From: Branchiostoma floridae
Lineage: Eukaryota; Chordata; Leptocardii; Amphioxiformes; Branchiostomatidae
Length of the DNA stretch: 64,000 bases
Assembly (NCBI RefSeq): GCF_000003815.2
Contig: NC_049989.1
Location: 14,696,502 to 14,760,501 of the forward strand
Direction of reading: 5' to 3'
In this document: positions 16,556 through 61,500 of the stretch, in pieces
Layout: the number at the start of each line of letters is the position of its first letter
Position numbering within the stretch: position 1 is the first letter of the stretch
Position numbers and translations under genes: made by a program
The notes under the pieces: generated by a model
The model's database searches: none
The model's input: only the letters and a program-made list of their open reading frames with translations
Told to the model about the DNA's origin: nothing

Positions 16556-16675
16556 TAGCTGTGCCATCTTCGTAAATTTCGGATATCTATATCTTGGAAG
16601 TTGTCGGCCATCTTTGAGGAATACGCTGTTTGTCGTGTTATCTTGTTCTTGTAACGACTTTGATAATCGAATAAT

Positions 16676-19600: not shown

Positions 19601-22600
19601 CTTGTGATCCAAAACACTTCCACTCAAATCCTTGTGATCCAAAATGAATTTCCAGTCCTGGTCAGTATTTGCAGCCGACAGATGACAATCCGTGTGTTTC
19701 CTCTCTCAGGTTCTCCAGCCAGACTCCAGCGATGATGAACCCCCTCCAGTGTACACCCCTCGGGCGGACCCCCCTCCTAGTTTCTTTGCCTCCCAGGGTA
19801 TCCCCACCCCTCCCCCCTCGTCCTCCCCTCTCTCTTCCCCCGTCCACCTAGTCATGACTGGCAAGGAGCTGAACGTTTCAGGGTCTGGCGGAAGTGTGAG
19901 TAGGACCTCCATTTTTGAAAATAAATGTTTATGTTGATATTATTTATTTATTTGTATTGCATAAGTGGTAAACTTCCTCATGATGTAATGCACCAAGCTT
20001 CATATCCAGGCAGATTTAATTGATCCACTCACACCTGAATGGACCCCTCTTTCCCATTAAATGTGGTGGGTTCTTAAACAAGCTCAAGGTACAATGTATT
20101 GCTGTCCTCAAACACAAGACCTCCATTTAACATCCTATCCAAGGGGTGTCCTTAACTGATGCTAGGTATTCATTTACACCTGAGTCTAGTTAATGGTCAA
20201 AAGTGCCTTTCCTTAGGGCACTACATTCTTCTTGTAAAGATCAGAGACTTAGTTGACAAAGACTCCTATCACTGTATCAGGATCTCTTCTGGCAGAATCA
20301 GCAATTTTATATACAGTGCTCAAAGTGCTTTTTTCAGCCATGTTGCCCAGGCAGCAACCTGAGTCAAAAGCTAGGCTACACCATCAACATTTCAGGTTGC
20401 CCCACTTGAAAGTTATGACTTTCTTCAAATCAACTACTTATCAATTGTCTTTTCTTCCAGACACTATTTATGTTTTATCTTATCAAGAAATGAATACAAA
20501 TTAAAGTTGGGAGAAAAGCCGTACTCCAACTGCAAAATTTCAGGTTGTGCACTGTGCTAGCTGGGTTTGAAAATATGTTGCGGCAAGCAAAATATGCAAG
20601 TGGGTATTTCGAGCACTGTATATACCAGATTGAAGTTTCTACCATTCAAACCAAGGCTCAGATTTCCGTGATCTAAATATGACTTTTGTTTCTTCTCCTG
20701 CCCATAAATGTAGAAGCCCTTCAGAAACTGGAACCCACCACTACTCGGTCAGCTGCCTGACGACTTCCTGAGAATCCAGCCCACCCCTGAGCAGCTGAAG
20801 GCACAGGGCATCACCGTCTCCCCTCCAAAGTCCCCACAGAAAGTTTCCTCCCCGAAACAGAAGCAGGTAGGTTGAAATAATACATCCCCCTCTCCAGTGC
20901 ATGTGACCACCCCTGCTGCAAAGTGGTACAGCCCAGCCAACTCCCTGTGGTACTGCCTTACTTTCAAATACAGTCTCTACAACATTGGATAGGATTCTAA
21001 GATTTATTTCTGGATGTACAAGATTTACTTCTTCAGTGTTACAAGAATGAACTGGAAGAAGACGTCTATACTAAGTGCATCAAACTGGAAGAAACAGTTG
21101 ACCATGTCGCGATATACTTCTTATTGACTTGTTCTGAGGGTTCATTCTAGTGGTGTTGAAGAAGAGTGATGGATGTCACTCAAGATTGCTGGAAGTGTCT
21201 AACGTCATAAATGCGGCACTCCCTGTTTCTAAAATGTTCCTTCTACTAATACTATACTTAAATATGATTCAGCTTGTGTTATTACTGATAAGGACCAAAT
21301 TTGAATATGGAGATATGGGGATAAATGTACACATACATACTACATTTTTCTTGATATCTCTCTCTCTACTCTCACGTGGAATGCTTCAGACGCCAAGACA
21401 GCCACCTGATGTTTGCTTTTTACATCAGGTAAATCCATAATGGTGGTATTTTTACTGTTCCAATTTCTTGTGTATGTGTCTATGTGTTTTCCAAAGACAA
21501 TTGATACTCACTCACACTCACTCTGGCGAGCTTGCTCGAAGTCTCCACATTGATACATTGTTGCCAATTTTTTCAACTAGAACTGCATAAGGAGCTAGAA
21601 TGCTTCATGAAAAAAATTCTCTGTTGATCAAAGTAGTTAAGAAAAAATATCATCTTCATCATTGGCTTAAAGAAGTTTGACTGTTTCTTTGTCTTTGAGT
21701 TGAACTCTGAAATTTGAATTTCTTGTCATTGTGACACAAATTTTAGAAAAGTTAGGCACTGTCAGCTCCTTCTGAATTATCATCATGTTATCTATGATTT
21801 ATCAGACCTGACTGCTTGCCAACTTACACCTAGTTTAGGATTCTCTGGAGTCACATACTGTGATGAAAAAATATTCATGGTTGTTTTGAGTTCTCGGTGA
21901 AGTGGCCGCCGCAAAATCTTGGTCATAAAACGGCATCGAACATTTCAGCATTTGCAGTATTATGTTGTAGATACATTGTGTGATGTTTTCCTGACATTGT
22001 GCTGAGGAAGTTGTTGTGAAACTCCCCTGCACTGTAGGCTCATTTGATATGTGGATAGTAGTACGAGATACATGTGTGGTGTTTTACTGACATTGTACTG
22101 AAAATTTTGTCCTGAAACCTCCGCCGCAGGCTCGTTTGAATTGACACAAATGTATGTGGATAGTATTAAGTAGGTACAGATACATATGGGATGTTTTGCT
22201 GACATTGTACTGAGGATGTTGTTGTGAAACCTCTCTAGGCTCATGCAGAAAGTGGCCATATAGACAAGGACCTGCAGCAGTACCTTGAAGACGAGAGAAT
22301 AGCCCTGTTTCTTCAGAACGAGGAGTTCTTACGGGAGCTAAGGAGGAACCAGGAGTTCATCAGTGCTTTGGAAAGAGGTGAAGAAAGTTGTACTATGTCT
22401 TAGATATTGTATTCCTTTTTTAGTTTCCATTTCTAGTTTTCTTCTCTAGTTTCCATGTTGACATAAGGTCATTGTTTTATCTTTTATCTTATCTTGTTGT
22501 ATTGAGATTGCAACAAGACCATACAAAGTTCACACAGTACCATCTATCAAAAATCAGTAACTTCAACATTAAGCATACGTAATGTTGTCACATATATACA

Positions 22601-25600: not shown

Positions 25601-27476
25601 TCACTCTTAGTCTACCGTTTAGCAACCAAAGTCGGATTCGTAGAAGGTGTAGAAGAATGTGTTTTTCCTGTTTGAAATTCATTGAGAAATCTGTGATATT
25701 TTGGTCACTCAACAGTGCTTGTACATAGTATTGTGCAAGAAACTGCTTTATGTAGAGGGAGACATTGATGTTGAATTAAAATGCATTACACTTAATGGTA
25801 CTACAGCCAACAGAAACGCACTGTCAGTATTCACTTTTAGATATTAGACTTTTGTGATAGTTGTTTATACAAAGATATGCTCAAACTTTTTTTTGCACAT
25901 GTCCATTTTTGTACATATGTATAATGTGTAAGAAACTGAAGTCAATGTTTCGTATCTCCTGTACTATGTAGATCATGATGAACATCACAGGGAGAGACAT
26001 GAGAGGGAAAGAGAGCGACCATTTATAGAGCCCCTGGTAGGTACCAGAAAATTAGCCACTACCCTATAACAATGGTGTTTATTCCATGTACAGACTAGTA
26101 GTAGTTCTTAAAACATTGTTCTAGTTAGAAGACTGAAATCAAAATGCCATCTAGTAAAGCTACGGTGTATTTCAGGTTGATTTATGATAATGATGGCAGG
26201 TTTTAAACTGACCTCTAACATGTGACCTTTGCCCCATCAGCCTGGTTCAGGAGCAGCGTATGTTCGTCGACAGCACATGATCAGGAAATATGGGAAGGTT
26301 TTACAGGTCCCCAAACAACAGGAGTACACAGTTTAGGTAGACTTGAGTAAGATTTTTTACCACAGGGTTGGCTCTGGACATAGACTCACATATAAATGTA
26401 GCAACAGCGGGAAACAAGGGCTTTTTAGCACCTAGCGCAGAAATGTTTTGAACAGCCACGCCAGGGGCGTTGGTAGATTAACTTTCCTAGAAAGGTGTAG
26501 CATGCTGAGGTGTATGCGGCAACTAACATTGCACTGCGATTACAGAAAGAAATGGGTTGCTTTGGTGTAGGTAAGCTTGTAGTAGTGGGTGTACAGTCTC
26601 TCTAAAATCACTGTAGTAATAGCCTAACGGGTAGGGTACTTGCAGTTTGATTCCCTAACTGCATGAGTCTTCCAAAAGACTTTAATAAATGGTAATTATT
26701 TAATATCTGGGCCACGGTAAGGTAATGTTCAATTCGGGAGTTCTGGACCTGGTGATAGCTTGCAGTATCACATGGGGTTCTACCTGTATCACATGTACAT
26801 GGGCTTCCATCAAATGAATTGAATGCACCCTGCACCTGCTGGGTGCGGCATGGTTGAAAGTCAAATACCAGTTTCAGATTCATTGTTGGAATTGCTGTTG
26901 TTACAACTTTTTGTTTAAGGATACCAAATGTTCTGAGCTTCTGTCACATTTCGCATTGAAATGTGTGTTTTCTCTTGTATGACATAAATAAAATGCAACA
27001 CAGTGTACTGTATGACCCTCGGTCCCAGCCTTTCCACGGACAGCCTTCCGGCCTGCGGTTGGGCTGATACGTGCACCTTGGGGGATACGGAGTACAACGT
27101 GTCGTATTCTATATACGCTGCTTCTCTGCGTAGTACTCAGCACTTGAGGGAAAAAGAATGGAAGTGGAACACACAGTGCTACCACTGGACCCTGCTGTAT
27201 TATCATCTTTGCTTGCACACCCGTGTGGCCCAAGGGCTAACAAGGCGGTGATGGGCACCTCCCTATGGTGTGGAAAGAACTAAAAATTTCTCAGCCATGA
27301 CATAGTTTTACTGACCTTTAACCTTTGCCCTTTAGCCCGGAGCAGGGGCGGCAGCAGTACACAGACAACAGCTGATGAGACAGAAATACGGGCTCACCGG
27401 TGGCAGTAACCATGGAAACACAGAACCAATCGTGTTCTACCAAGAGGACGACCACTTCCAGATGAAGGAGTGGTGA
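16676..27476 (+). CDS. CUEDC1: CUE domain-containing protein 1 (spliced, 10 coding exons)
   Basis: CUE domains bind ubiquitin; CUEDC1 is a conserved animal adaptor of poorly defined role. Exons read by eye: 16676-17035, 19710-19895, 20714-20866, 22239-22377, 23802-23903, 24333-24464, 25302-25371, 25506-25567, 25972-26036, then 27336-27476 (or 26241-26336). All joins keep frame, giving 469 aa or, with the other end, 454; vertebrate CUEDC1 is about 386. The CUE domain (about residues 56-99) has the MFP motif (68-70) and the LL pair (95-96). Family blocks follow in order: SDDEPPPVYTP, RNWNPPLLGQLPDDFLR, YLEDERIALFLQNEEF, FKERLKHMGKS and STANLL. The N-terminus is basic and Ser/Arg-rich. A proline run (23802-23903) and a His/Arg/Glu-rich stretch before the end are extra relative to vertebrates. 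The start ATG (ATAATATGGCG) opens the frame containing the CUE domain. Confidence 0.93.
17061..18319. mobile_element. 1.26-kb element with 20-base perfect TIRs in CUEDC1 intron 1
   Basis: TTACTCTCACCTCTCAAATA (17071-17090) is matched by its exact complement at 18294-18313, with weaker matching further out. Just inside the left end are four GTACCCCC(T/C) units (17091-17176). Just inside the right end is a 24-base perfect palindrome centred on GTACCGGTAC (18274-18297). It starts only about 25 bases after the CUEDC1 exon 1 donor. No transposase was seen. A 30-codon frame with a strong start context (AACATGGCGG, 17654) lies inside. Confidence 0.65.
17091..17176 (+). repeat. Tandem AGTACCCCCTGGAATAAA repeat
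   Basis: There are four copies of AGTACCCCC(T/C) joined by GGAATAAA or a longer linker. It lies at the left end of the 17061-18319 element. Confidence 0.8.
18320..19389. other. CUEDC1 intron 1, unremarkable
   Basis: No exon or complete element was recognised. A stretch near 18410-18460 (TTGTTGTGTAC, GGATAAACACTTTAAT) has a diverged relative near 50735-50780. Confidence 0.4.
19390..19644 (+). repeat. Minisatellite of 33/30-bp units, eight copies
   Basis: Units begin CACTTCCACTCAAAT and end CCTTGTGATCCAAAA. The order of lengths is 33, 33, 30, 33, 33, 30, 33, 30, i.e. a higher-order period of 96 bases. Every unit length is a multiple of three, so long frames stay open on both strands (for example an HFHSNNPCDPK repeat). 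These are intronic shadows rather than genes. Confidence 0.95.
20019..20186 (-). repeat. tRNA-derived SINE, copy 3 (body only)
   Basis: Read on the minus strand it carries the family body (CACCTGAGT ... GTTAAATGGAGGTC-type ... CCCACCACATTTAATGGG). The tRNA-like head is not recognisable. It lies in CUEDC1 intron 2. Confidence 0.6.
20546..20622. repeat. Short hAT-like MITE relic
   Basis: GGGTTTGAAAATATG and GTATTTCGAGCACTG face each other, as in the CAGGGCTCGAAAT family, across about 40 bases of ATGCAAGTG words. Confidence 0.35.
21980..22245 (+). repeat. Three diverged tandem units ending at the exon 4 acceptor
   Basis: Units start near 21980, 22076 and 22188 with G(A/G)TGTTTT(C/A/G)CTGACATTGT and end with an acceptor-like TAG|GCTCAT, CAG|GCTCGT and TAG|GCTCAT. 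Only the third leads into the open CUEDC1 exon (22239). The first two lead into stops. Confidence 0.7.
24543..24888. mobile_element. hAT-like MITE, CAGGGCTCGAAAT family, copy 3
   Basis: TGCAGGTTTCGAAATACTTT at the left faces AGTGGTATTTTGAGCCCTGCA at the right. TGCACC and ACCTGCA words fill both subterminal parts. It lies in the intron after CUEDC1 exon 6. Confidence 0.55.
26241..26336 (+). CDS. CUEDC1: Alternative last coding exon of CUEDC1 (proximal)
   Basis: After acceptor GCCCCATCAG the exon encodes PGSGAAYVRRQHMIRKYGK, a short tail and a TAG at 26334. It follows the phase-0 donor at 26036, like the exon at 27336-27476. The first 19 residues match that exon's PGAGAAAVHRQQLMRQKYG closely, so the two are tandem duplicates used as mutually exclusive ends. 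An AATAAA lies at 26987-26992 and could end this form. It is also possible that a donor at CAG|GTCC or TAG|GTAG lets this exon be spliced onward, but its own stop makes a terminal role simpler. Confidence 0.75.
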   Translation, partial: PGSGAAYVRRQHMIRKYGKVLQVPKQQEYTV

Positions 27477-35120: not shown

Positions 35121-38100
35121 ATGCTGGAGACAATGGGGTGGGTGGTGAATGCAGTAGGCGTGGCCGTGGTGGGCATGGTGGCGGTCAACCTCAACTTCTG
35201 GCTACCCAAACACATCCCAGCGCAGCTCGTACATATCGCAGGTGGGTGGACGCTAGAGGCTGCTTAGAGGCTAAGAGACATGATAGAATATACAGTCAAA
35301 CCTGTCCAAGACGACCGCCCGGGGGACTGGGCAAAAGAGGTCGATCTTAGTGGTCGGTTAGAAGAGTATCGACTCACAACATGTCCATTATTGACGTAGT
35401 CAAATTCCGACGCAAACTGGCTGAATTCGGCACAAAATCACACCAGTTATCATTCAAAATTGATGACACTTCGAGATTTGAAAATGACGTGGTCATTATG
35501 GGCAGGGATTTGGTCCTAATTTTTGGCGGTCGCGGTCGCGTTGGCCAGGTGGTCGTTGTCAAGAGGTTGCTAAATGCTTACATCAATAGGGAAAATTTTC
35601 GGGACCGAGAAAAAGCGGTCGTAATGGTCAGGTGGTCGCTAAGAAGAGTTGGTCGCTTGGGCAGGTTTGACTGTACATGTATCTGAATGTTGTGTCAATA
35701 GGAGTCTTTTCAAAGTAGTCAACCTAAACATCTGGTCTGATACATGAAAATGTACCTATACTATAGATACAATGCATCCCAGTTTAAGAAAGGACGCTAG
35801 TCATAGATTTAGGTCCCCTTTCCACTAGACTGCATTGCTACCCATGACTGACTTAATTGCTTGTATACTTAAACCATAGATTTTATGATCCAGGAATATA
35901 TAATGTAAAAGTATGATTTATAACTCAGCAAAACATCTGCCTAGTAGTAAGTGCCTAGTCCAGAGGGACTGGCCCCTTGCTCCTCTCCATCAACAAAACA
36001 CCCAAAACCTTAAGAATTTGTTCTTTGTGTATGAAATTCATTGGGCGAGCAAACTTTGCTGAGTACGTGTTCCGGTTGTACATTGATGTTGATATAACAG
36101 TTATGTCAACATAGGATATATGGGTCAGTGGAACTGGCCTTTTGTAGCTACATTTTGTATTGTCGCAAGTAATTCCCTGATCATCAATAGTACCATAGAT
36201 ACTGTGTTCAAGCCAACCTGAATTTTTGTCTTTCGCCGCGCTTCCGCGGCGAAAGGCAATCAGACCGATATTAGATTTCTGTCCGTCTGTCCGTCCGTCC
36301 GTCCGTCCGGGTCGACCATGCCATACCGTGCTAGCGAGATATTCTACCCTGTAGATTCGACGGTATGTAACGTTATGACATACGTATCGGCCTACCATGA
36401 ATGTGCTGCTTGGTTTGCGGTCCATGCCATATCGTGCTAGCGAGATATTCTACCCTGCAGATTCGACGGTATGTAACGTTATGACATACGTATCGGCCTA
36501 CCATGAATGTGCTGCTTGGTTTCTGTATGGCTTATAAGCAGGAATTTGCAGAGACGGATGTGAACGGTGAGGATTTCTTCGTAAGATTGTATACAATTTA
36601 TAAACTAACATGTTCGCTGTTTGGTTATAATAAAACAGACATTGTAGAGAACAGTTTGACATGTCATTTACTTTGTTTTATGGAAAATCACCGCTACAAA
36701 ATCTAGAATTGTGTAAGATGCGTGCGCCGCATCTGACATGGTGTGGGAGGGGGGCGTATTCGGAAATTTCTTACTCTAAGAAATTTCAGGCTATTTTCGT
36801 GTAACAAACTTCTTTCAGCAAAATAGTAGCCCTCGGATGCGTTGAAAATAGAATTACCCACATTTAATTTATAATTTCGAAAGGGAAGATTCTGACCGAG
36901 CTCGACGGAGTGAGTCTGACGCGTGACGTCACGACTCCGTCAAGTAAAAGCATAATTGCGTTACTAAAAGAAACGAAACGTTCCATTAAACATACCACGG
37001 ACCTGTTTTAGTTTAAAATATCTACCTTTCACATGATCTTGCCATTAAAAAAAATATTTCCATTACTGTATATGCCATGTTAATATTTTATGTTCAGTTG
37101 TTTATGGTGACAATACTTTGTTTGTTCTTGCAGAAATTCAGGACACATCTACTGATAAATTTGATTACTACAGTGCACTTTCATAAAACCCTGTTGTACT
37201 GTAACAGAGCCGTTCTTAACAGCGAAACAATCCGAATAAAGTTAACATCATTCATGCAGTTGTGTTATTATACAGTTCAAGTAAAATATACTCTGTGAGA
37301 ACCACTACCTTACTAAACAGTTATATAACCTAGCACTTGACCAAACTGTGCCAGAGCTGCCAACGTTGCAGACTTGGCACCCACGCTTGACCAAACTATG
37401 CCAAACAATTTTACCTACACAATATAAGTAAGCGAAAGACTAGCTTTTTTCAGAAGCTCTTGTTTTCCATCCCCTGGATTTTGAATGGAAATCCTGTTAT
37501 GCGTGGAAGGTGCAACAATCCTAGGGGGTCCAGGAAAATTTTGAAATGTAGGATCTAGACCCTCTGAACCACTAATTCCTGCATTTTGAGGGGCAAATTT
37601 GGCTGGTAGAGTACTAGTAGAGTGAGCTTGGTTCAATGGCATCTGTGCAAAATTTCATTTTTCAAAATATTTTTATATGCTGATTTGGGGTCCGTCAGTG
37701 GTTGGAATGGGCAAGATTTTTGTCTGTCCCCAGCTGCAAAATTCCATTAAAGAACAGAGGTACAGATGCTGGCTGGAATCCTGGTTAGACATAAAATTTA
37801 TATATATGTTTTAAACTTCTGATGTGGGATTGCAGATCATTCACATTTTGTTAGAATGGGCTATGGTAGCTACATGTAAGCCATCCCCTCATCTGTGCCC
37901 AAACAATTATATAGTCCACAGACTGCATGTTTAGTCTCTGGCACCCTGTACAGTACTACAAAGTGAACTGTGTAAGAGCAAAAGGTTTAGACGTACAGAC
38001 AGACGTACAGACAAGTCTTTCCAATCCCACAGGATACAGCTGGGATGATTCTCTTGAAGTTACAGTGTTGCTTAGAGTTTAAACCAATGTATAAAATCTC

Positions 38101-40253
38101 TGCGGTGATAAATTACATGCAAATGCCCTGTCATGGTAATACAAGGAAAGACGATTGATTAGCACTCATGTTGAATTGTCCTCCATAAAAACAAATTACC
38201 TAGTACCTCTTCTTACTCTTAGATTTAGAATTGAGCAGGTTAGGATCTAGACCCTAGTTCTACTAAGTTTGTTGTAAATGGATCACAACAAATATCATCA
38301 TCTCAGAATATCTTACATTTGAATAAAAGTTTTGATCTGTCTCAGTGATTGACATTAAACTTAAAGTTAAAAATTTCTGCTTTTCAAGTTGAGAAGGATC
38401 CGAGTTACTGATGGAAATCTTGTTTGTTATCACTTTGTGAATGGAAATAGCACATAAAATCTTTATAATTGTTTGTTATCACTTTGTATATGGAAATGGC
38501 ACGTAAAATCTGTATAATTGTTTGTTAACACTTTGTGTATGGAAATAGCATGTAAAATCTACATATGTATAATTCAGAACTCTGTCTTTTTCCATGTTGA
38601 TTCAGATGCTGCTCTAGAAGAGTTGGATGGTAATAAGAAGAAGCTGCAGGCACAAGAACTGTGGAAAAACCATGGTGCCGTCATCATGGCGGTGCGCAGG
38701 CCTGGATGACAGCTGTGCAGAGAGGTGAGTCATTTGAATACACAATGTCAGTAGAGTGACAGGAAGTTAAGTTCAGAGGTGATAGAACTAGCTGTTTTAA
38801 TATCAGACATTACATGATGGTCAATCAAAGAGTCTACGAATTTGTTTTGCTCTGTATGTTTGTGTTTTACAGTTACAAAATATTTGATTTCTGTATACTA
38901 GTCATACTCACTATAGAGTGACAGGAAGTGATCAATGGACACATGTTATGTTAATCAGAATCTTATTTGCATAGCCAATGAATTGACAGATCCTGACTGT
39001 CCATCACAATCAACAGTTCAACCAGTCCAATGGTAGCATGGCAATTATCAGTTTGACCAATCAGAGATTGACTGCATGTCTATCAAATATTTGAATCTGT
39101 ATGCTATTTTATTTTGAATTTTCTACATTTTGAGGGCTATGGGATCAGTCTATTACAAGTAAACAAGACATAATATCAGAAACTCTGAATATTTCATGAA
39201 GGTATGAGATCTTTGAACTCTTGTTGTTCCTGCCCCGTCCCCAGGAGGCCCTAGGGCTGTCCTCTCTGAAGCCCCAGCTGGACCGGGCTGGTGTCCCCCT
39301 CTATGCTGTTGTCCATGAGAGGAAGGGAGTGCCAGAGTTCCAGCCTTACTTCCAGGGGAAGGTCTTCCTGGATCTTGAGGTATAGCAGCTGCAATGTTGT
39401 AGTCTCTTCTTCTGTACTTTAACATAATTGCTAAATAACTAAAACGTCAGGCTGAGTTAATGATTAGTGGATTGGCTTTTTTTTACTAGGAAAATTTGAT
39501 TGGGATGGTTCAGCTGCAAATACTTTTTTCTTTAGGTAAAGCAGACCTTTCTCGTAGCTACAGACCTGAAGTGCTATTATATGCCATATGTGCCCAAAAC
39601 TTTAATCAATGTCCCAACATTTTTATGTTCAACTTCTCATTGATAAACTCTGATGCGTGACTTTTCCTTGCTGTATGTGTGACCAAGCATTCTAGAAAAA
39701 TGCTTTGTCATGAGCGACTGCTGCTGATACCTTGTACGTTACTAAGTGTAAGAAAGAGTTAAAGACTTTCTTTTTATTAGTTGTATGATTGAGCTTTTTT
39801 TTTCAACACAACACGAACACTGATCAGCATGAATTTTCAGTCGACCACGGTGACATTCATCAGACTCTGATTCACTGCACTGACTTTCTGGAGACTTTCT
39901 TTTTCTTTAATCATGTATGACTTATTGATAACAAAATAAAGTCAAAGTCCTCATTATTCATTGTATGATTCTTCCAGAGAAGATTCTACGGCCCCCATGA
40001 GCGATGGATGTCACTCGCTGGTCTCCTGAGGGTCAACTTCTGGCTCAACATCCGCCGGGTTATGGAGAAGAAAGTGGAGGGCAACTACGAAGGGGAGGGG
40101 CGGTTGCTAGGCGGGGTCTTCGTCGTCGGGAGCGGTAACCAGGGCATCCTCATGCAGCATGCCGAGCAGGAGTTCGGTCACCATGCCAACCTAACTGACA
40201 TCATGAAGGCTGTGGGGGAAATTCAGCACATCAATGCAAAGAGCAAAATTTAG
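35121..40253 (+). CDS. PRXL2A: Selenoprotein U / peroxiredoxin-like 2A (spliced, in-frame Sec TGA)
   Basis: A thioredoxin-fold PRXL2 (FAM213/SelU) protein, a family with redox activity. Four coding exons join in frame: 35121-35241, 38606-38724, 39245-39379, 39978-40253; 216 aa, as in vertebrates. The N-terminus has a hydrophobic segment (about 7-28), then ELWKNHGAVIMAVRRPG, then TGA at 38707-38709, then QLCRE. The family has CxxC here in Cys forms, so TGA replaces the first Cys: Sec75-x-x-Cys78. Downstream, VPLYAVVHERKGVPEFQPYF, FYGPHERWM and GEGRLLGGVFVVGSGNQGIL are highly conserved, so the frame is alive past the TGA. A canonical SECIS lies in the 3' UTR (41104-41168). Without Sec decoding the product would stop at 74 residues. 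A simple point mutation is unlikely given the SECIS. Confidence 0.94.
35293..35673. mobile_element. Tc1/mariner-like MITE (CAGTCAAACCTG ends)
   Basis: TA|CAGTCAAACCTGTCCAAG at the left and CTTGGGCAGGTTTGACTG|TA at the right, with TA on both sides. The interior has GGTCGTC/GACCGC words and one 101-codon open frame that is not a transposase. A fragment of the family lies at 14541. Confidence 0.75.
36283..36309 (+). repeat. (GTCC)n microsatellite
   Basis: About six GTCC units, the first interrupted by a T (GTCCGTCTGTCC). Confidence 0.8.
36317..36522 (+). repeat. Tandem duplication, 106-base period
   Basis: Two copies of a segment starting CATGCCATA(C/T)CGTGCTAGCG and ending GTGCTGCTTGGTTT differ at only a few positions (for example CCTGTAG against CCTGCAG), so the duplication is recent. 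Confidence 0.9.
37455..37785. repeat. Dispersed repeat, pair A copy 2
   Basis: Same orientation as 8541-8925, with shared blocks CTGGATTTTGAATGGAAATC, GGGGGTCCAGGAAAATTTTG and TGTCCCCAGCTGCAAAATTC. Confidence 0.7.
38707..38709 (+). other. Selenocysteine (TGA) codon
   Basis: It is codon 75 of the spliced frame, 15 bases before the donor at 38724/38725. The motif reads R-P-G-U-Q-L-C-R-E. Confidence 0.93.
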
Positions 40254-40257
40254 AAAA

Positions 40258-40287
40258 GATGATGATGATGATGATGATGATGATGAG
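40258..40287 (+). repeat. (GAT)n microsatellite
   Basis: About nine GAT/ATG triplets immediately after the PRXL2A stop codon, in the 3' UTR. Confidence 0.9.
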
Positions 40288-40354
40288 ATGCAATTGATGT
40301 TTTTTTAAGTCACAAAAGCTGCTACGTTATTTCACTTTGAATTCAGTTGAGCTG

Positions 40355-40675
40355 CAATTTCTAACAGGAGAGACTGGACTTATCCAATTTTTTTACTGCT
40401 TGACTCCAGTCTTTGTCAAGGAATGCTTCTGTGACCTCACATTATGTAGATAGCACATGTGACTCCATAAGCAGTGAATCATAAGTTGTAGAAAGTCTAT
40501 GTCGCCCTCCGTCTCTGTTTAGTGAGGGATGTATGTGTTTAGAAACTTCGGCAAATTTTGAACTTGGGCACTAATGTGTTCAAGAAAACTGGTCTTGAGT
40601 GTCAATTCCTTGACAAAGACTGGTGTAGATCAGTTTTTAAAAATTGGATAAGTCCAATTTCTTGTGTTGGAAATT
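40355..40675. mobile_element. MITE with ~65-base TIRs in the PRXL2A 3' UTR
   Basis: The left arm (about 40355-40425: TTCTAACAGG, GACTTATCCAATTTTT, CCAGTCTTTGTCAAGGAA) is mirrored by 40598-40670 (TTCCTTGACAAAGACTGG, AAAAATTGGATAAGTCC, GTGTTGGAA). The spacer of about 170 bases has no coding content. It lies between the stop codon and the SECIS. Confidence 0.75.
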
Positions 40676-41103
40676 TAAGTTCAATTTTTTCATTTTTTTT
40701 AAAGAGTGAATTCTACCAACACAGATGAACCTTCAAGTCATTTTGTTTTATAAAGATTTATTAAATCACAGTCGTAGTCTGGCATTGCATTATCAGAGTT
40801 TTGAAACGAATTGGTTGACTTAACTTCTTTTTCGATTTTTCCAGTTGTGCCAATGATAGTAATCGTTATTAACTGAACAATGTTAAACATCTAACAGCAA
40901 TTTGAGACTTATGTTATATCATTGATCAAGTGGATGTACAGTAGGACACTTAGAATTTCTCGTTGCTAAATCTTGTTAAGGTTGCACTTCTCAAAAAGTA
41001 AAAAGCTATTTCAGTACTTGTTACTGAGGGAATGTATTGATATGACAACTGGAATACGACGTGGCAATACAACTCTGCATTGTCATTGCATTTCAAACTA
41101 ACA

Positions 41104-41168
41104 CACATAATAGAATGATGGCAAAAGATGAAAACTTTCCACATCTCTTGCTTGATAGTTTTTCTGTG
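41104..41168 (+). promoter_or_regulatory. SECIS element
   Basis: The core quartet is ATGA at 41115-41118 and TGAT at 41153-41156. Helix II between them is 11 positions, GGCAAAAGATG against CATCTCTTGCT, with one mismatch and one wobble. It is capped by a loop that starts with the diagnostic unpaired AA (AAAACTTTCCA). Below the quartet, CACATAATAG can pair loosely with TTTTTCTGTG. It lies about 860 bases after the PRXL2A stop and about 65 bases before the polyadenylation signal. It recruits the Sec insertion machinery to read TGA 38707 as selenocysteine. Confidence 0.9.
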
Positions 41169-41233
41169 AAGATGTGCGAAGTGTTTTGATATAATTGCAG
41201 GTTTGATTGGACGTAGACATTCCAGAGGTGTTG

Positions 41234-41239
41234 AATAAA
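41234..41239 (+). terminator. Polyadenylation signal AATAAA of PRXL2A
   Basis: First AATAAA after the SECIS; it fixes a plausible 3' UTR of about 1.0 kb. Confidence 0.55.
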
Positions 41240-41800
41240 GCATTGAATGAAATGAAGAAAAATAGTCTGTCTCTTTCAGCATTCTTCTTAAGGGTAAATC
41301 AATAAAAAGTTACGTACATGTATGTTAGAAAATCACAAATTTGAAGAATCTGGAAACTGAATTACAAAACCTTACCATTCTGTTATTATTAAGTCTTTCC
41401 ACTCGCTAGGCCATGGACCCTCATTTCAAAAGAAGCCTATACAAATACAAATGCAATTACATGGTGTTAACATGATATTGAAACAGTCCATTTAAACAGC
41501 AAATATCTTGCACACGTTCTTTCAGTCTGGGGTAAGTTAAACAGCCGAATCAGTTATTTGTCTAAAGACCTAAGGTCTCCTTGTTACATTAACTGTATAC
41601 AGAGAATAATAAGTTACATATTATTCCAATTGTTACAATGTACAAGTGCAGTGAATGCAATTTATTGGTTACCAATTTGGATTTTGACCTGGTGGTAATG
41701 CAAAAGGTAATAATAACGGGTATTCCGGGAAATTTTATTCGTCATTTGACCCTTACGTGTGACGCAGCGCAAAAAAAGAGTCCTCAAACTTTTTACCAAG

Positions 41801-44716
41801 ATGCTTTGGACGATCGTGACGTTCTTGAGGTCACTTGTGCTGGTATCTGTCTTCACTACCGATTCGGAAGGGCACAGCAGACACGGGAGCTATTGGGGGC
41901 ATAGACGGAGACAACTCCCGGTACATCCAGTGGACTGTGTCTGGTCAACTTGGAACTCCTGGGGCCCGTGTTCGGCTCCATGTGGGAACACTGGACTCCA
42001 AACACGGACAAGGTGAGGCATTCATATATTCGTGACTGAAGTATCAATCATTTCAATTATAGTAACACTGAATTTGTGAACAACGTAAATTTCCTTGCCG
42101 TTTCATGCAATAACCGAAATGGCCGGGAAGAAATTGGACAAGAAACGGAGCAAGAGTATTTGTGTTCAATTTCATGATACGTTTGAGGGAAGGAATACGA
42201 TTAAAGCGGCATATTACCACTCACAGAGGTACTTAAATATACTAGAAGAACTGTATTGCGCAACGATCGTACACGGTACAATGTATGGCAAAAAAAGAAG
42301 AAACAAACTTATCATCCTAGTTACTAAAACAAGTATTAAACATAGTACATATGCAGATTATGAATATAGAATGAAATTTGACATCCTAATTTCTAGAACA
42401 ATAAGAGCTAGCCTAAAACATTGTGACTAGGGCTGGGTACCGGTACAGAAAATTCAGGTCCAGGTCCGGTTCAGGTCCAAAGGATCAGGTCCAGGTCCGG
42501 ACCTGAACCTGAACCTGATGCAGTATGACTCATACCAATGGTCCATTTCACTACAAAGAGATCTGTTTGGTGGAGTATTAGACTTACACTGGTGTTTTAA
42601 AATCCTTCAACGCTAACTGCACCTGTACGATTGGCTGTAAAACTTGGTAGAAATTACTATAAACTCTACTGCACTTCACTCTTGTTATTTTCTTCCACCT
42701 GCAAGCGCCAAAACGTGTATATGCCTGATAAAATAATCTGTTAATTTTCTAATCGGTCCAACATCCGGTGCACCTAATTTTTTCAGGTCCGGTTTTTCTG
42801 GACCGGTCCAATAAGAAAAACCGGTTTTGTACCGGTACGCTGTACCGATACCCAGCCCTAATTGTGACTATTGTGCTCTATGCTTGTCATGAATTTTACC
42901 CTTTTGATACCTGTCGCGTTTTCTTAAGTATACTTTAGTATTTAACGACAGCGAAACGTCGCCAGGTTTTAGTATGATCAAAGAAACATTGACACAAACA
43001 CTTTAAGAAAATGTACTTAGTACATAGACGCTTGTAATGCAGATGATGTTTTGCGTGTTGTGTGTTTGATAGATAACGATACATGTGTTTCAATCAAGTT
43101 GTAAACTAATATTGGGGGGGATATCGGGAGGTGACCATTTCTTGCAGATCAACAAGTGTCGATTTATTATCGATTTATTTGTTTGTTTGCTTGGATGTAC
43201 AATGATATAACACTTAATGGTGTATAACATAAAATGTCAGTAGGTCGGTGCTATAGACCTGTAACTACATGCCAGTCAGAGCCGCGTCTTTCACGTTGAC
43301 GGACAAAATATTTGCAGTGCAAATACGCTGTACAATTAACTGTGTTTTTCCTGGAATTCAAGTGTTAGGTGCAGGTTGCTTGGCGAGAGCCTTTCTGGCG
43401 TCGTTTCCGCATTCAACTAGATGTAACGTGTTTCATTTCTAACGGTTAGGTTCATCGTTCAGTATGCAGCCAATGGTGGGAGGGAATGCATAGGGAGTAG
43501 CAGAGAGAGCCGACCGTGTAACAGGTTCTGTTATAACGGGGGCACACCTGCAGGTGCCGGGTGTAACTGTGCACCCGGCTACACAGGGACATGTTGTGCT
43601 ACACGTGAGTACTTTATGATTCTCATGATAGATCTGCCGTCAATAGCTTAACATGAAAATCCATCTATGTTGGTAAATGACATTCTGAAAGTAAAGTAAA
43701 CTTTATCTAACCAACACTTCAAGTAAATTGGAACTTAACCCAAATTTTCGTAAGGTCAAGGTCCCATTTCCAAAACGGGACCCGGCCGTAAACGAAAAAT
43801 CAATTGTTTACCAAAGAATATACACAAATTATGCCCATGACATTTTGTAACGTTCTGTGTGCTTAGTTGCCTTTTATATCATATTTTTCACTAAACTGTA
43901 AGTTATTGGGTTTGACTACTTTTTCTGAGACAATAGAACGTTATGTGTGGGTTTTGTGAAGAGTCTGTAAGCGTGGAAAGTTAGGATAGAATTTGCTGGC
44001 ATCTGAGCTCTTTTCTCTCTTGATCGTAGCAGGGACAGGTTGAAATGAAATGTGTTTCGTCTTCTACCGTATCAACAATGACGTCACACCATCTCTTCAC
44101 GTTGACAGTTGGCTCGTGTCCCGTGGCGGGACTTGGGTCCGTAGGTTCTTGCCGGGACACCTGCCGGACGGACTGGGACTGTCCCGGGGGACGGTTGTGC
44201 TGCCCGAAGCGCTGTTGGAACTGGGCGGCTGTCTGTAAGGACCCCGTACTACCAGCTACGGAGGCACCGCCTGAGTCACCTCCAGGTACGGTAACTTTTG
44301 GGGGGCTTTGGGACAGGCGTGCGTGCATGCGCGTGTGTGTACGTACATGTGTACTGTGTGCGTGTGTGTGTGCGCGCGCGTGCGTGCGTACGTGCGCGCG
44401 CGTGCATGTATGTGTGTGTGTGCGTTACATAGTGTAGTTGTGCCTTACACTAAAATAGCATTCAAACGAAGCAAACTCATGCTTGGAACCGCCATCTTCC
44501 ACAGGTGGAGACGATACAACTCGAAACGATGGAGAGAATACAACAAGAATCCTCGAAATAGTACTTCCCACGGTTTTGATTCCCGTAACCGCAATCGCCA
44601 TTACCATCATAGCTGTCTGCTTCAAGCGTCCCGATAATGCAGTCACCCCCATCGTGGTGGCCGTTCGTGAGATGGACCCGCGGGGTCCACCGCCACCCTA
44701 CGAGGCCTGGACCTAG
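41801..44716 (+). CDS. TSP1-EGF-WAP single-pass membrane protein with PPPPY tail
   Basis: Exons: 41801-42012, 43450-43604, 44109-44285, 44505-44716; in-frame joins give 251 aa. It has a hydrophobic N-terminal signal (LWTIVTFLRSLVLVSVF, residues 2-18), then a thrombospondin type 1 repeat (about 45-93; WSTWNSWGPCSAPCG, with its second half in exon 2). A compact EGF-like module follows (CYNGG ... CNCAPGYTGTCC), then a WAP four-disulfide core (about 125-168; CRTDWDCPGGRLCCPKRC). A Thr/Pro stalk, one TM helix (about 197-221) and a 30-residue cytoplasmic tail follow; GPPPPYEAW fits a WW-domain-binding PPxY motif. The last two introns are phase 1. Likely a type I surface protein; the ligand is unknown and I recognise no named orthologue. 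The ATG at 41801 is preferred to the in-frame 41759 because it starts the signal directly. Confidence 0.82.
42244..42364 (+). repeat. Long direct repeat, copy 1
   Basis: About 120 bases (AGAAGAACT ... TGCAGATTATGAA) recur at 48050-48173 with about 90% identity by eye. This copy lies in intron 1 of the TSP1-WAP gene, about 230 bases after its first exon. Confidence 0.9.
42428..42860. mobile_element. hAT-like MITE (TAGGGCTGGGTACCG ends)
   Basis: TAGGGCTGGGTACCGGTACA faces TGTACCGATACCCAGCCCTA. An 8-base target duplication ATTGTGAC flanks both sides (42420-42427, 42861-42868). The interior is made of GGTCCAGGTCCGG words and has no transposase. A diverged relative of the CCGGTAC-rich interior lies at about 17950-18055. 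Confidence 0.88.
42870..43449. other. Intron of the TSP1-WAP gene, unremarkable
   Basis: No exon or repeat was recognised. Confidence 0.4.
43981..44092 (-). pseudogene. LINE ORF2 C-terminal fragment
   Basis: On the minus strand the frame reads DTVEDETHFISTCPCYDQER and ends at a stop at 43981. The DE.HF...CP.Y...R pattern is the zinc-knuckle-like tail of many non-LTR reverse transcriptases. No RT core is nearby. It ends just before the WAP exon (44109). Confidence 0.6.
44328..44431 (+). repeat. Alternating purine-pyrimidine (GT/GC) tract
   Basis: GTGTGTGTACGTACATGTG-type and GCGCGCGCGTGC-type runs lie just after the WAP exon donor, in the intron before the TM exon. The tract has Z-DNA-forming potential. 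Confidence 0.85.
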
Positions 44717-48049: not shown

Positions 48050-48173
48050 AAGAAGAACTTGATTGCGCAACGATCGTACACGGTACGATGTATGGCAAAA
48101 AAAGAAAAAAAAAACTTATCATCCTAATTACTAAAACAAGTATTTAAACATAGTACATAGGCAGATTATGAAT
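48050..48173 (+). repeat. Long direct repeat, copy 2
   Basis: Partner of 42244-42364. This copy ends 51 bases before the first CUB exon. Confidence 0.9.
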
Positions 48174-48224
48174 TAACATATCTGCCTTACTGTTGTGGTA
48201 ACAAGAAACGTCTTTCCCTAATAG

Positions 48225-51200
48225 CGTGCCGACCAGTTCTACTGACAGCAGAAACTGGGACGTTCAGTAGTCCCAACTACCCAGAGAACTACCCGAACAA
48301 CCAGAGATGTCTGTACGAGATCATAGTGCAGCGGAATCAAAGGATCCTTCTGACATTTTCTGACTTCAACGTTGAGAGAGACCTGGACTTCGTGGAGGTC
48401 TATGACGGAATCGACCAAAGCAGAGGAGGTACTTTAGGACAATCTTAGATGTTTGTGTCTGAAAAATAGGTATAAAATGCCAAGTAAATAGGAGAGAGTT
48501 TGGCATCAATCTGTTTTTTCAGTTAAGTTTGTGTGTTTGTTTGTTTGTAGAATTGTGTGTCCTGGCGTTTCAATCGTAAAACAGCACCATGACAACACCA
48601 AAGTAAAGTGTATGTTTTACATCCTTCCTAGAAGTGTAGCTCCATCTTGCTCTATTTTAGGCTCTTTTACCATTTATCCGTTTAACAACCTGAAACAAAG
48701 TACGCAAAATACACATTAGACACATTGTGGACACTATAACAGGAAATTACGTCAAAGGTGCTAGAAAGGTCCCAGAGGGATGACAGGAAATGGAATTGGT
48801 CCGAGTCACATGTTTTCCCCCAGGCGCTCTCTCGTGTACTTATTACGACAGCTCAGACATTATACGAAGATGAACCTAAGCAAGAAAAACATTCAGAAAA
48901 AAAGATTTACAAAAACTCTAGATATGATACGCGTATGTTATCATTTTTCTTTCTTTCTAGGAGAGCGGTACACAGGTCAGACAAACGTCCACCTTATAGA
49001 ATCTACAGGGAACGCCATGACGGTAGTCTTTACGTCGGACAGGGCAGGGACGGCCTCCGGGTTTAACGCCTCGTACATTACATTGGAGTCAGGTACGTAG
49101 TGTCAAGAACGACATTCATTGGTGGACAAGCTCGAAGGTTGAGCACTTTTGAATGCAGCAACGATGTTTGCCTTTCCCCACAAATGTTGAAACAGACATA
49201 CTCTAAAGAACAGATCTAGAAACAACATTCATTGGTTGAAAACATCGAAAATTGAGCTCCCCCAAAAAATATGCCCCCCGTGTAATGACGTTTTAGAGGG
49301 TCGAGATTTTTCGCATTATTGGGGTCTGCTACAGATTTGAACACAGAACCTTCAGATTCGAATTCAACAATACCACAAGACCCCCTTGCCACCTCTTTCC
49401 GCAATAGGTTGCCAGCCAGTTCTGTTGACAGGCGAAAGCGGGACCTTTAGCAGCCCAGACTACCCGGACAACTACCCTAGCAACCAGACCTGCCGTTACG
49501 ACATCGTGGTGGAGTCAGACAAGAGGATCCAGTTGACCTTTTCTGTGTTTGACCTTGAGAGAAGCTCGGACTTCTTGGATATCTATGACGGGAACTCTAC
49601 TGACAGGCAGAATCGAATAGGTAAGGACTACGTGCGCATTTCCGAAAAACTGTACCTCTTACTATTAGGGCCTTCACGTGTACAATGAAACCAAATTGGC
49701 AAGAATCAAGCAGAACCAGCAAGAATGAAGAGGTTGCAAAGTTCGTGCCACATTCGGGTGGGAATTCCAAATGGACGTCGACCTTATATCCCCTTCACCC
49801 GAGAAGGAATGAGACGACATGCCGTCAGAATAACTATTCTTTGTCTATTCCTGGGTATTTGTAGTGCATTCTTGACTTCTCACTGCATTCCAGATGTTCT
49901 TTTGGCCACATTCTGGCAGGACTTGAAGTGGTTTGCTGTTTCGGTTCTCCATCGAATGAGATCAGAATGTTTCGAATAATGTTGGAATGCCGCAGAATGC
50001 GGTCATACTGCAGTTAGAACACACTTTGCATGCCGTTCGATATTTCTTCACTTCGAATGCACCTCGAAAGTTTTAAGCATAACAAAAACATTTGGGACGA
50101 ACCCAAGAATGGGCAGAAATATCTGTAACTGTTATTGTTGTTGTTATTGGGTGGGTCGACTACTCACTCTTTGCAGCCAGGGTATGAATTGCGATGAGCT
50201 TACAATAGGCGGGGCTAAATCGCAAGGGTCTGGAGCGAGCTGCCATTCGGCGCCACTCAGTTGACCTCAATACGACTGTCGCAAGTGTCTGGAGCGAGCT
50301 GCCATTCGGCGCTACTCAGGTGACCTCAATACGACAGTAATTGCCCCAGGTGCGGCCAAGGTACCGTAGGTTTTGGACCACTCACACCGCACCATCGCAC
50401 GTACGTGTGGCGGGTTCTTTAACGTGCCTGGGGTATGGCTCTCCCCAGACACGGGACCTCCATTTAACGTCCTATCCGAGGGACGGCCCTAGCCGAAGCT
50501 AGGTACTCATTTTCACCTGAGTAAAGTGAGAACGCAGGAACGCAGTGAGAATTTCTATAATGCACTTCGCATACACAGGAATATACAAACAATAGTCATT
50601 CTGAGGAGAGTCATTCTGACCGCATTCCGGCTGATTCCGCTTTTCACGTGATGGGGCCTTTTGTCGAACGAACAGATACAAAACTTCCCGACGCCATATT
50701 TGATACGTGATTGGTTCTGACGTATGCACTACACTATTGTTGTGTACTGTACGTTTCGTCTGGGATAAACGCTTTAATATTATTACATGCCTCATCTTCT
50801 TTTTTAAAGGACTAATGCAATTGAGTATAAGTTTTTGCATCGTTATACCAACCCGTGTTGAAAACAATGTTTGATTTCGTCCAAATGTAATAGCACTTTG
50901 ATGTGGTGAAGTTCAATACTGTACTGTAAGATTTTTCAGTATGTGAAAGACAGATTTATCAAGAAACAATTTATTTTTATCTTGGTTCAAACCGCAGGGG
51001 TCCGGAACACTGGTCTGCTAAACCTGGGCACCATATACTCCTCAGCTAACACCATGACGGCCGTCTTCACTTCTGATGCTACGGGAACAGCTGCTGGGTT
51101 CAGTGCCACCTACACTGCAGTAGATATAGGTATGAACAGTTGGGTTGGTGGAGAGAGTGGTCCAGTCCGGACGGCGGAAAAAGCGATCCAGTCTGGTTAG

Positions 51201-54200
51201 CGGGTGAAAAAAAGCGGTCCATCCTTACAGGGACAAGTGAAATCGCTCAAAAGAAAATTACTGTGACGTAGTTTCCTTGAAGTACCATCAACATTTGTTA
51301 CCCTTTTGTAGAAAATGGCAATCACTGAAGGAGACTCTACCAGAATCCATAGGTCGCTGGAAAAATAGTAGAAATTGAACATATATAGACACAGAACATG
51401 CCAGACGAGTTAGCTGGGTCGCAACCATACTCCTCGGCCAGCTAACTCCTCTGGCATTTTCTGTGTCTCACCTCACCTCACTTCACCTATCCCTTGACCT
51501 CTGTGTGGGTCGTTGGGGCACCATGACTTCGTCCACTATTCTTCTCCACCTGTCTCTATCCTCCGCCGCTCTTATGGCTTCCGCTAAGTTCAGCCCGGTC
51601 CATTCTTTTATGTTGTCCTCCCATCGTTTCTTCTGTCTTCCTCTCTTTCGGCTTCCTGGGACTGTCCCTTGTAGTATTGTTTTTGTTAACCCCGACGACC
51701 TTGCCGCATGACCAAACCATCTTAATTTGCGCTTTTTCACTGTTGTCAAGAGGTTGTCATGTGGTCCTATGGCTTGTACGACTTTGTTGCGGATTTCCTC
51801 GTTAGTGACACGGTCTAAGTACGTAATCCCCAGAATTTTCCTGTAGCATCTCATTTCCATTGAGAGGATTCTTTTCTGTAACTCGGTTGTCAATGTCCAG
51901 GTCTCACATCCGTACAGGTAAATTGACAGAGTTAGGGCACGCATAAGATTAATTTTGGATCTTAGGCATATGTTCTTATCCTTCCATATGGTGTTGAGCC
52001 TAGCTAGTGCGGCTACTGTCTGCGCAGACCTTGCTAAGATTTCTGGACGGGATCCTTCGTCAGATATGATTGAACCTAAATATTTGAATTTTGCAACATT
52101 CTCTAGCCTTGTTTCACCAAGTTTGATTGTGGCATTGAAACCGTGAGTATTGTTTGTCATTATTTTGGTCTTTTCACCACTGATTTCCATGCCAAAGGCT
52201 GTGGCTGCATTGTCCAAACGGTCCACCAATTCTATTAACTCGCTCTCTTCCCCAGCTAACCCATCAATGTCGTCGGCGAAACGTAAGTTTGTCACCTGTC
52301 TGCCGCCTANNNNNNNNNNNNNNNNNNNNNNNNNNNNNNNNNNNNNNNNNNNNNNNNNNNNNNNNNNNNNNNNNNNNNNNNNNNNNNNNNNNNNNNNNNN
52401 NNNNNNNNNNNNNNNNNNNNNNNNNNNNNNNNNNNNNNNNNNNNNNNNNNNNNNNNNNNNNNNNNNNNNNNNNNNNNNNNNNNNNNNNNNNNNNNNNNNN
52501 NNNNNNNNNNNNNNNNNNNNNNNNNNNNNNNNNNNNNNNNNNNNNNNNNNNNNNNNNNNNNAAGCCTTCTTAAAATCTATAAATACATGATATAGGTCTT
52601 TCTGGTGTTGCAGGTGTTTTTCACATATTATTCTTAAGTTGAAGATTTGTTCAGTTGTGCTGCCCGGTCTAAAACCTGCCTGTTCCTCTTTGATAATGGT
52701 TTCCGCTACTGGTTTCAGTCTGTTTAGGATGATTCGCAGCATAACTTTGCTAGGGTGACTTATCAGACTTATAGTACGATAGTTCTGACACATTTGCAAG
52801 TTCCCCTTCTTTGGTAAGGTAATGATCAGGGAGCGTGTCCATGGGGTTGGCCATTCCCCTGATTTCCAGATAGCATTGCAAATGGAGGTGAGAGCTGTGA
52901 TCATGTCTTCTCCTCCAGCCTGTATCAGTTCTGCTGGAATATTGTCTGGTCCTGGAGACTTACCCGGTTTCAACGCTTTGACCGCGGTTTCAACTTCCTC
53001 CCTCAGTATGGGGTCAGAGTCTAGTTCAGAGTCTGCCTGTGGACAGTTCAGCATTGCTGGGTTCACTTTCAGTTTGTAATTATACAGTTCTTCACAATAC
53101 TCTGTCCATCTGTTCAGGATGTCTGCTTCTTCCGTGAGACATTCTCATGTCTTACTCTGTATGTTAGTTGGCCTAGCACTCTTATCTTTGGTAAGTTCTT
53201 TGACCACTTCATATGCTTTCTTTGTGTTGTTTTGTTTAAGGCTGGTTTGGATTTCAGTGCATTTCTGCTCTATCCATGCTTTCTTTGCCTTTTTCATTCC
53301 TCTCTTGACTTTGTTGTTTGCTACTCTGTACTTTTGGGCTCCTTCTGAGCTGTTCTTCCCTTTCTTTAATTCACGTCTCATGTCACACAGTTCTAAAATT
53401 TCTGCTGTCACCCATGGCTTCTTGGCACGTTGGTGCTTGCCAAGGGTCTCTTTGGCAGCTTGTAGTACAACTGTGTTAAACTTTTCTACAACTTCCTCTA
53501 AGTCTTCCTTTTCATTGCCATCTAATACTGTCAGCGGGGCGAACCTTCCTCCAATTTTAGCTTGGAACTGTTCCTTTATTGCAGGGTCTTTAAGTTTGTC
53601 CAAGTCAAATCGAAGTCTGGTAAATTTCTGCTTCCTGACCCTTGTTAGACGCATTCTGAATGTCATCATAACCAAGTATCTGTGTCTATATTTGTCCAAT
53701 TTCTACTATTTTTCCATCGACCCGGGGAGCTTCGTAGAGGCGCAGACGTCCATACGTTCCTCATTTGGACTTGAATATGTACGCACCTGTGAACCCACCC
53801 TAATGACCAATAAGATGCCTGCATTCTTCTGATATAGGGTGTCCATCCCGAGCCTTTATGAAGGACAGCGGTCGGCTCCACTCCCCTTTCTACCCGGCAC
53901 CTTATCCAAACGAGGACCGATGCCGGTACCGCATCAAAGTCGACTTCAACAAAGCTGTCCAACTGGCCTTTGTGGACTTCACCCTCGAAGATGGCTATGA
54001 CTATGTAGAAGTATTCCAGGGCGACACCACAAATCGTAAATTTTCACTCGGTAACCGTTCTCTTCAATATTTTTCCTACTGATAAAGTAACGCAGGTGTG
54101 GGTAACCTATATCCGTTGTATTTAGAAGCGGGGTATTTGAGATAACTAAGTCGACAGACTGTGGTTTTAAATTGACATTTTGTCAAAACATTGCAGTTTG

Positions 54201-58539: not shown

Positions 58540-61500
58540 TCAGCGAGAGACGGCACAAAGTTGGAAAGGCACAGGCCCCATGCTCAACGACTTGTTGATC
58601 CCTTCGGTTGAAGGTGTAGGAGCGCCCTCTGGCACCTTTAGCGTAAAGTGCTGCAGGATGGTGGAGAACAGGAGGAAGAGTTCCATCTTCGCCAGCTGCT
58701 CACCTAAGCAGTTCCTACGGCCTGAAAACACAAAAGGAATTATTTTTATAGGAGTTTGTACATTTTGAAAACAAAATTTTAATTGTAAGCATTCAAGTCG
58801 ACTTAGGCCTGTCAGGCCTGGTCAGGCAACCACCTAGAGCAGGCAACTCACTCCAGTCACAACCCTCATTAAAACATTCCTGTCCCATTTTACCAGTTAA
58901 CTCCACCCTATCATGAGCAATCACCTGTCCTCGGCAACCATTTTTCCACAGTCCCTTAGGTGGTTGTAGTTTGACAAACTTCCAACGCACATACGTATAC
59001 CGTAGCGTAGGCATAGTTAAGGCTTAGGTCCCATTTCGGAAGTACGGTCGACGACCTGGCGATTACTATAGGGTTTCGGGCAAATTTTAGGAGCTTGTCA
59101 GTTGGGGTTTATACCTCTGTATTATGTCACATGTGCACAAAAAAGGCAGAAAGGACAATAACTGAAACTTTCCGGAATAATACTATAAACCAAGTTCAAA
59201 TTGTAACGGCGAAGATTTTCAGCAAAAATGCGGTCGACAATCGGGCGATCTTGAAATTTGGCGAGCTGTAGCTGATCAATAATTCGGCCGTCGTTCGCTT
59301 GAATTGCGATCTTTAGATTCTACCCAAGGTTCTTATCTGGTGATCTCGTAACACTTCATTTTTTTTTTCATTTAATGAATTCGGTGACATTTTGTTTGTA
59401 AAGTAAGTTTTGTTGGTGCCTTTATTTATTTCGTACCTGCGGAGAAGGGTAAGAACGATGGTGGATTCTTCACAACCTTGCCTTCCGCATCTAGGAACCG
59501 GCTGGGGTCAAACTCATCCGGATTGGGCCAGACCTCAGGGTCCATGTGGACGGACCTAAGGTTCGGAACCAGCTGATATGGTTTGATAAGAAAACAAGTC
59601 ATCATCTTTTGGTAAAAGGGACGATGTCTGTATCAAGAGCATCATAGATTAGCTGTCAGATAAATAGTATGATTATCAATATATATGAGAAAAAGAGGCG
59701 AGAGAGACAGATAGCTCCGGAGTAGGAAATTTACAGCGAGACAAAGATTTTGTAGCGAAGTGTCGGTTGAGGTCCATATTGACAGGTTATCTCCATGAAA
59801 AATGGAGATATAGTTTTGGGTGTGTCACTTAATTTGCATATTTAATGAGGAAAAATTATATTTGTAGTGTTTTTTTTTTCATTATAGGACTCGAATACCT
59901 GTAATATATGAAAATCTGTATTTATAGTGTTTTTCATTATAGGACTCGAATACTTAAAGTATGTTGTTTGCGGCACATGGAACATTAACAGATACCAATT
60001 ATGCCCGGCCGGGCCCAAAAATAGAAGGCGCAACGTGTCCCATGGGGTGCCAAAAAACAGCCCGTGAACTTCCCTGTAGCGCCCCCCCCCCTTTCCCAAT
60101 TGGAACCTAAGCCTTACTGAGTAGTAAAGTAACATTACTTTTTTCCCCTTCCGAATGTCGAAACCACGGAGGCGTGTTGACTCAGCTGTATCGCGAATGA
60201 ACATTAAACCTGCGATGTGGCGGATTCGCTGGGACTCCATGATGGTGGCAGCGGTGAAGGGAAGCTGGTCTCTGTGTGCCAGATTCGGTTTGGTGGCGCC
60301 AAGCACACTGTCAAGTTCGGCCTGGACCTGGAAAACACAACGATACAACAAAACACACACACAGACATAGAAACACACAAATAAATGCACGAACATTGCC
60401 AGACATCTCTTCCAATATCTGTTTGTCATTTCGCCCGCTTGTCATGCTAGAGTCAAATTTGCACCGGTGCCCGTAGGGACTGTAGACCAGATCGGGCCCC
60501 GAGACCACAAATCTGTCCCATTGGACTGCTGAATACCACAGAGGTACCTCTAGGTGTGCTCACGATTAGCATACGGCGTCTTTGTGTTATCGGGTCCCGG
60601 GTTCATTTTATCTCCGAATTAAAAGTCAACCTGGGCCCGGCCGTGCACAAAAATAGTCCTGTAGCTATAGGGTGTCCCAATGGACCACGTAGGGATCACG
60701 CCCGAAAGCGCGAAGAAACAGTCCGTAAACTACAATCCCTTTTAAAAGAAGCATTCTCTACAAATCTCTCCTACAAAAATACCTACAAATTGTAGTAATC
60801 TTCTAATAAAGCATTCGTTCTCTCTAACCTTCTGCTGTACATCCGGATAAAGGATCATGTAGAGCAGGGCCCACGTCAGTGTGGCAGCCGTGGTGTCCGT
60901 CCCTGCCACGAAGAGGTCCTGAAGAATATACACCACGTTGTCGTCATTCATCCATATTTCGTTCCCGTCCTGCTGGGCCAGTTGGAGCAGGCAGTAGTCT
61001 ATGAAGTCTCTTGGATTCTCCGGGTCCAGATTCAGACGGTGCCGATCTATTTCCTCACGGATGAACAGTTGTAGTTTCTTGGAATAGAAGCGCAGTCCCG
61101 CGGCTGGATCTTGAACTGTTTTGCAAAACAAACGGTTTTAAAGATGTAACGCTAGTTCACCTATATCCACAAGTAACCTATATGTATGGTATTAAAAAAA
61201 CAGGGTACTTAAGATGTCAAGTCGACTGACGAAATTGCAATATTTTGAAAACCGCCTTCCATCGACATTATATTCCTCAATACCCTGTTTTTCAATACCA
61301 CGGATAACTAGCGTTAGTAACCGGTGTCCTATTGCGTCAAATGGTGTTCTAAACCGTCTTTTAAAACCGGATCCAGCGTATTTAGGAGGTTTAGTCTTGC
61401 GAGGTCTCTGCGATTTTTTTTCAGCCTCTATTTCTATCTATGATGAATGCACGATGTACGGATGATAACTTGCAGCTGTCTCTATTCCTCGTATCTTGTA

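Follow-up and report, generated by a model that had tools for sequence, protein, structure and literature searches.

Does the in-frame TGA at 38707-38709 close a short peptide, or does it encode selenocysteine (Sec) at the redox site of a SelU protein? In the window, the whole stretch of 64,000 nucleotides of the Branchiostoma floridae genome analysed here, we reconstructed what we take, with a probability of about 0.96, to be a working, intact SelU1 (PRXL2A, FAM213A) selenoprotein gene. The gene model, the homology, the position of the codon, the hairpin in the 3' UTR and the decoding genes of the host were observed directly, and insertion of Sec at residue 75 very probably follows from them.

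Gene model and position of the TGA

The spliced frame of the SelU gene comprises 216 residues encoded on the plus strand by four joined exons (35121-35241, 38606-38724, 39245-39379, and 39978-40253), and all three introns have GT..AG ends. Exon 1, which was delimited by its frame and splice sites, contains the start codon and a hydrophobic N-terminal segment and ends with one base over (CGCAG followed by gtgggt in the intron). The start codon was picked on frame alone, and another in-frame ATG is located at 35133; the placement of this exon in the SelU gene combines its frame and splice sites with a presumed likeness to PRXL2A. The remaining exons were assigned by the joined frame, supplemented in the last two by Pfam: exon 2 (119 nt) includes the Sec codon together with the UxxC motif, exon 3 extends the SelU1/PRXL2A frame, and exon 4 ends in a TAG stop at 40251-40253. 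The TGA is the only internal stop in the frame and corresponds to residue 75, with 74 residues before it and 141 after it, in the motif R-R-P-G-U-Q-L-C-R-E-E. The preliminary description had read R-P-G-stop-Q-L-C-R-E at this point, and the joined frame gives the same letters. It further had the conserved protein running on for 141 codons across three more splice joins; the codon count stands and the region is conserved, but only two joins (38724/39245 and 39379/39978) follow the TGA, the third (35241/38606) being upstream. Its count of 74 preceding residues is likewise right, although it does not fit the interval 38606..41168 given for the gene, because exon 1 was left out of that interval.

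Downstream of the coding region, the sequence on the same strand contains a poly(A) signal AATAAA at 41234-41239, 3' of the candidate SECIS element described below. Further poly(A) signal matches are found at 40760 (ATTAAA, 5' of this element) and at 41301; the former would, if used, terminate SelU transcripts upstream of the SECIS.

Several other features were noted elsewhere in the window. On the plus strand, there are a CUE-domain open frame at 16667-17191 (E=1.8e-14), a WAP four-disulfide core domain at 44030-44437 (E=2.7e-07), and CUB-domain frames at 48161-48448, 49341-49688, and 53807-54082, which probably represent exons from at least one secreted protein. Three frames on the minus strand within 58540-62001 match cytochrome P450 and are probably exons of one gene. 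A 553-residue frame at 51483-53144 (minus strand), with a masked stretch inside, resembles a LINE-type reverse transcriptase by eye, and the adjoining frame 53145-53702 has no match to a Pfam family. Finally, a tandem repeat at 19291-19735 is open in several frames on both strands, with units such as HFHSNNPCDPK.

Family membership and paralogs

The product matches PF13911 (AhpC-TSA_2) over residues 85-189, wholly after the TGA, with E=1.1e-17 and 64.9 bits (cut-off 27), whereas PF00578 (AhpC-TSA), which spans the TGA at residues 40-105, stays under its cut-off (22.4 bits vs 26). A search of the PDB at E up to 1 retrieved two distinct sequences, both of prostamide/prostaglandin F synthase: 9us9 (PRXL2B; E=2.5e-15, residues 54-206 aligned) and 9usa (E=1.6e-12). 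In these alignments, for which the search program entered residue 75 as Cys, this residue pairs with the first Cys of the CxxC motif in 9us9, so that UQLC (residues 75-78) lies over CxxC, and with Ser in 9usa, a near-identical chain with Ser at both motif positions. Both marks of the SelU/PRXL2 (Prx-like2) family, the AhpC-TSA_2 domain and the CxxC/UxxC motif, are present in the protein.

The SelU protein was also searched against the entire genome (513,431,437 bases in 431 contigs). Four out of five matches are the four exons, at a single locus, while the fifth (E=0.01) belongs to a paralog at C14:788401-788556 on the minus strand. Two exons of this paralog read RRFGCQ-VCRW across an intron and have Cys at the Sec site; when joined by eye, they share 32 of 65 identical residues with SelU. 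The pattern RRFGCxVCRW is common to this paralog and 9us9, and the paralog is a Cys-form, PRXL2B/SelU3-like gene. The claim that the in-frame TGA occupies the redox Cys position of PRXL2A/SelU is borne out by both relatives, each of which has Cys opposite it, and coding sequence extends on both sides of the codon.

The locus in the window is the only SelU1-like one found by the genome search, and its product is presumably PRXL2A-like. Assignment to the SelU1 subfamily follows by elimination from a 2012 study (PMC3473315), the cited passages of which list one Sec-form SelU for B. floridae, describe the amphioxus SelU3 as a Cys form, and place the Sec form among SelU2 in Trichoplax only; since SelU3 of amphioxus has Cys and the sole Sec-containing SelU2 comes from Trichoplax, the Sec SelU of the lancelet is SelU1. 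By the same elimination, the gene in the window, from the same species, is very probably the one listed there. In the corresponding passages of PMC3316567, the Sec-containing SelU proteins of the tree all fall within SelU1.

SECIS candidate and Sec-decoding genes

The predicted SECIS core at 41115-41156 (plus strand) begins 862 nt past the last base of the TAG and consists of ATGA, a helix II of 11 positions (10 standard pairs plus an A.C mismatch), an apical loop of 11 nt, AAAACTTTCCA, that starts with AAAA, and TGAT. These elements had been recognized in the preliminary description, and all of them were seen again. As Rfam is weak as a SECIS test, we wrote a scanner for the SECIS architecture (quartet, helix II, unpaired AA) and ran it with nulls. 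Scanned on both strands, the window contains 16 core matches (11 plus, 5 minus). Only one of them has a better helix energy than the SelU candidate (-8.3 kcal/mol), namely the plus-strand site at 10992-11024 (-10.2), which has 8/10 pairs and a 4-nt loop. Ten pairs are reached by the candidate (10/11) and by one further match, at 27012-27068 (10/12). For the nulls, the threshold was fixed after the fact at the candidate's own score. Twenty further 10-kb stretches of the genome, scanned on both strands and amounting to 374,032 unmasked bases, yielded 58 core matches, none of which reached -8.3 or lower or had at least 10 pairs. When the 3' UTR (40254-41240) was dinucleotide-shuffled 2,000 times, no shuffle equalled the candidate. 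At deiodinase-like loci, the scanner found a comparable element within 2 kb downstream in one case out of three (-9.3, 11/12 pairs) and no element in the other two, hence it is specific rather than sensitive.

Other tests of the hairpin were less favorable. The minimum-energy fold of 41095-41180 includes helix II, but the bases of the 5' quartet are paired elsewhere, and this fold moderately beats its shuffles (z -1.73; 9 out of 200 as good). The Rfam SECIS_1 model can be aligned over its full length at 41106-41166, but it scores 16.1 bits (E=9.3) where the cut-off is 35, which is no support by itself, and no Rfam family reaches its gathering cut-off anywhere in the window. The 3' UTR element is identified by our scanner with its nulls, yet falls under the SECIS_1 cut-off. 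A loose SECIS pattern was discarded as evidence of its own; it is unspecific, with 1476 forward and 1485 reverse matches in the genome, where the control with the pattern reversed gave 685 and 664.

The genome encodes components of Sec decoding, namely tRNA-Sec, SepSecS, and eEFSec. An Rfam search for tRNA-Sec gave 12 matches, four of them above cut-off, which ARAGORN resolved into three tRNA-Sec(TCA) and one tRNA-Ser; weak matches mean little, because the control matched in 14 out of 14 prokaryotes (5 above cut-off). SepSecS is represented by five matches inside approximately 2 kb of contig C4, two of them with internal stops that may reflect reading on into introns (control matched in 3/14), and eEFSec domain III by a single match with E=1.8e-41 (control 0/14). 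Among 22 deiodinase matches, 10 have at least one in-frame TGA, counted at any position; the only Pfam Rdx (SelW/SelT) match has no internal stop. Given tRNA-Sec, SepSecS, eEFSec and the TGA-bearing deiodinase matches, it is very probable that this animal decodes TGA as Sec.

Alternative readings and comparison with known SelU proteins

The TGA might instead be a true stop, introduced by mutation or base error, that leaves a recent pseudogene or a truncated 74-residue product. Formally, the codon is a stop, its translation is predicted from the DNA, and the SECIS candidate scores under the Rfam cut-off; however, the lone stop falls exactly on the Sec/Cys site of the family, the 141 downstream codons are open and conserved behind intact splice ends, the SECIS core is present in the 3' UTR, and a Sec-form SelU of B. 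floridae is reported in the cited part of PMC3473315, so that we consider this reading very improbable. We give still less credence to a selenium-dependent switch at UGA75, in which termination under low selenium would leave a stable membrane segment of 74 residues that has its own function. Removal of the TGA by splicing or RNA editing, resulting in an ordinary Cys or a shorter protein, is the least probable reading: we found no point in its support, and omission of exon 2 would put the following exons out of frame, bring in a stop 24 codons later, and also lose the redox motif.

For the SelU1 selenoprotein, we propose that the four exons are spliced into one mRNA, in which the ribosome would insert Sec at codon 75, with tRNA-Sec and eEFSec supplying the residue and the SECIS hairpin directing its insertion. 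The resulting 216-residue protein would have a peroxiredoxin-like thioredoxin fold and, judging from its sequence and the Cys relatives, would probably be membrane-anchored. By the same comparison, U75-Q-L-C78 would be the redox centre, where selenolate attack is followed by formation of a selenenylsulfide with Cys78 and by its reduction. Gene callers that take every TGA as a stop would truncate this gene. The 2012 selenoprotein study reportedly used an older B. floridae assembly; the chromosome-scale assembly shows amphioxus with a Sec-form SelU1 alongside a Cys-form paralog.

One Sec-form SelU in the Florida lancelet is already in print (PMC3473315), and it is an ordinary finding, in agreement with the earlier suggestion that this lineage keeps the Sec form. 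In the cited passages of that study, SelU1 has Sec in every invertebrate of the tree, as well as in fishes, birds, reptiles, and platypus, whereas the members from higher mammals and from two frogs have Cys. A Sec-form SelU1 beside a Cys-form paralog in amphioxus would fit Sec as the older state in chordates. The Cys form (PAMM, adiporedoxin) is described in the cited part of PMC5150245 as a redox regulator, the activity of which requires CXXC. PRXL2B (prostamide/prostaglandin F synthase, SelU3) belongs to the same sequence family as the protein in the window; however, 9us9 is a Cys form, and its match excludes the N-terminal hydrophobic segment. Animal SelU1 proteins (PRXL2A/FAM213A, PAMM/adiporedoxin) share with the gene in the window the Prx-like2 domain and a Sec or Cys first in (U/C)xxC, and presumably differ from it in no notable respect, the amphioxus gene having QL between U and C.
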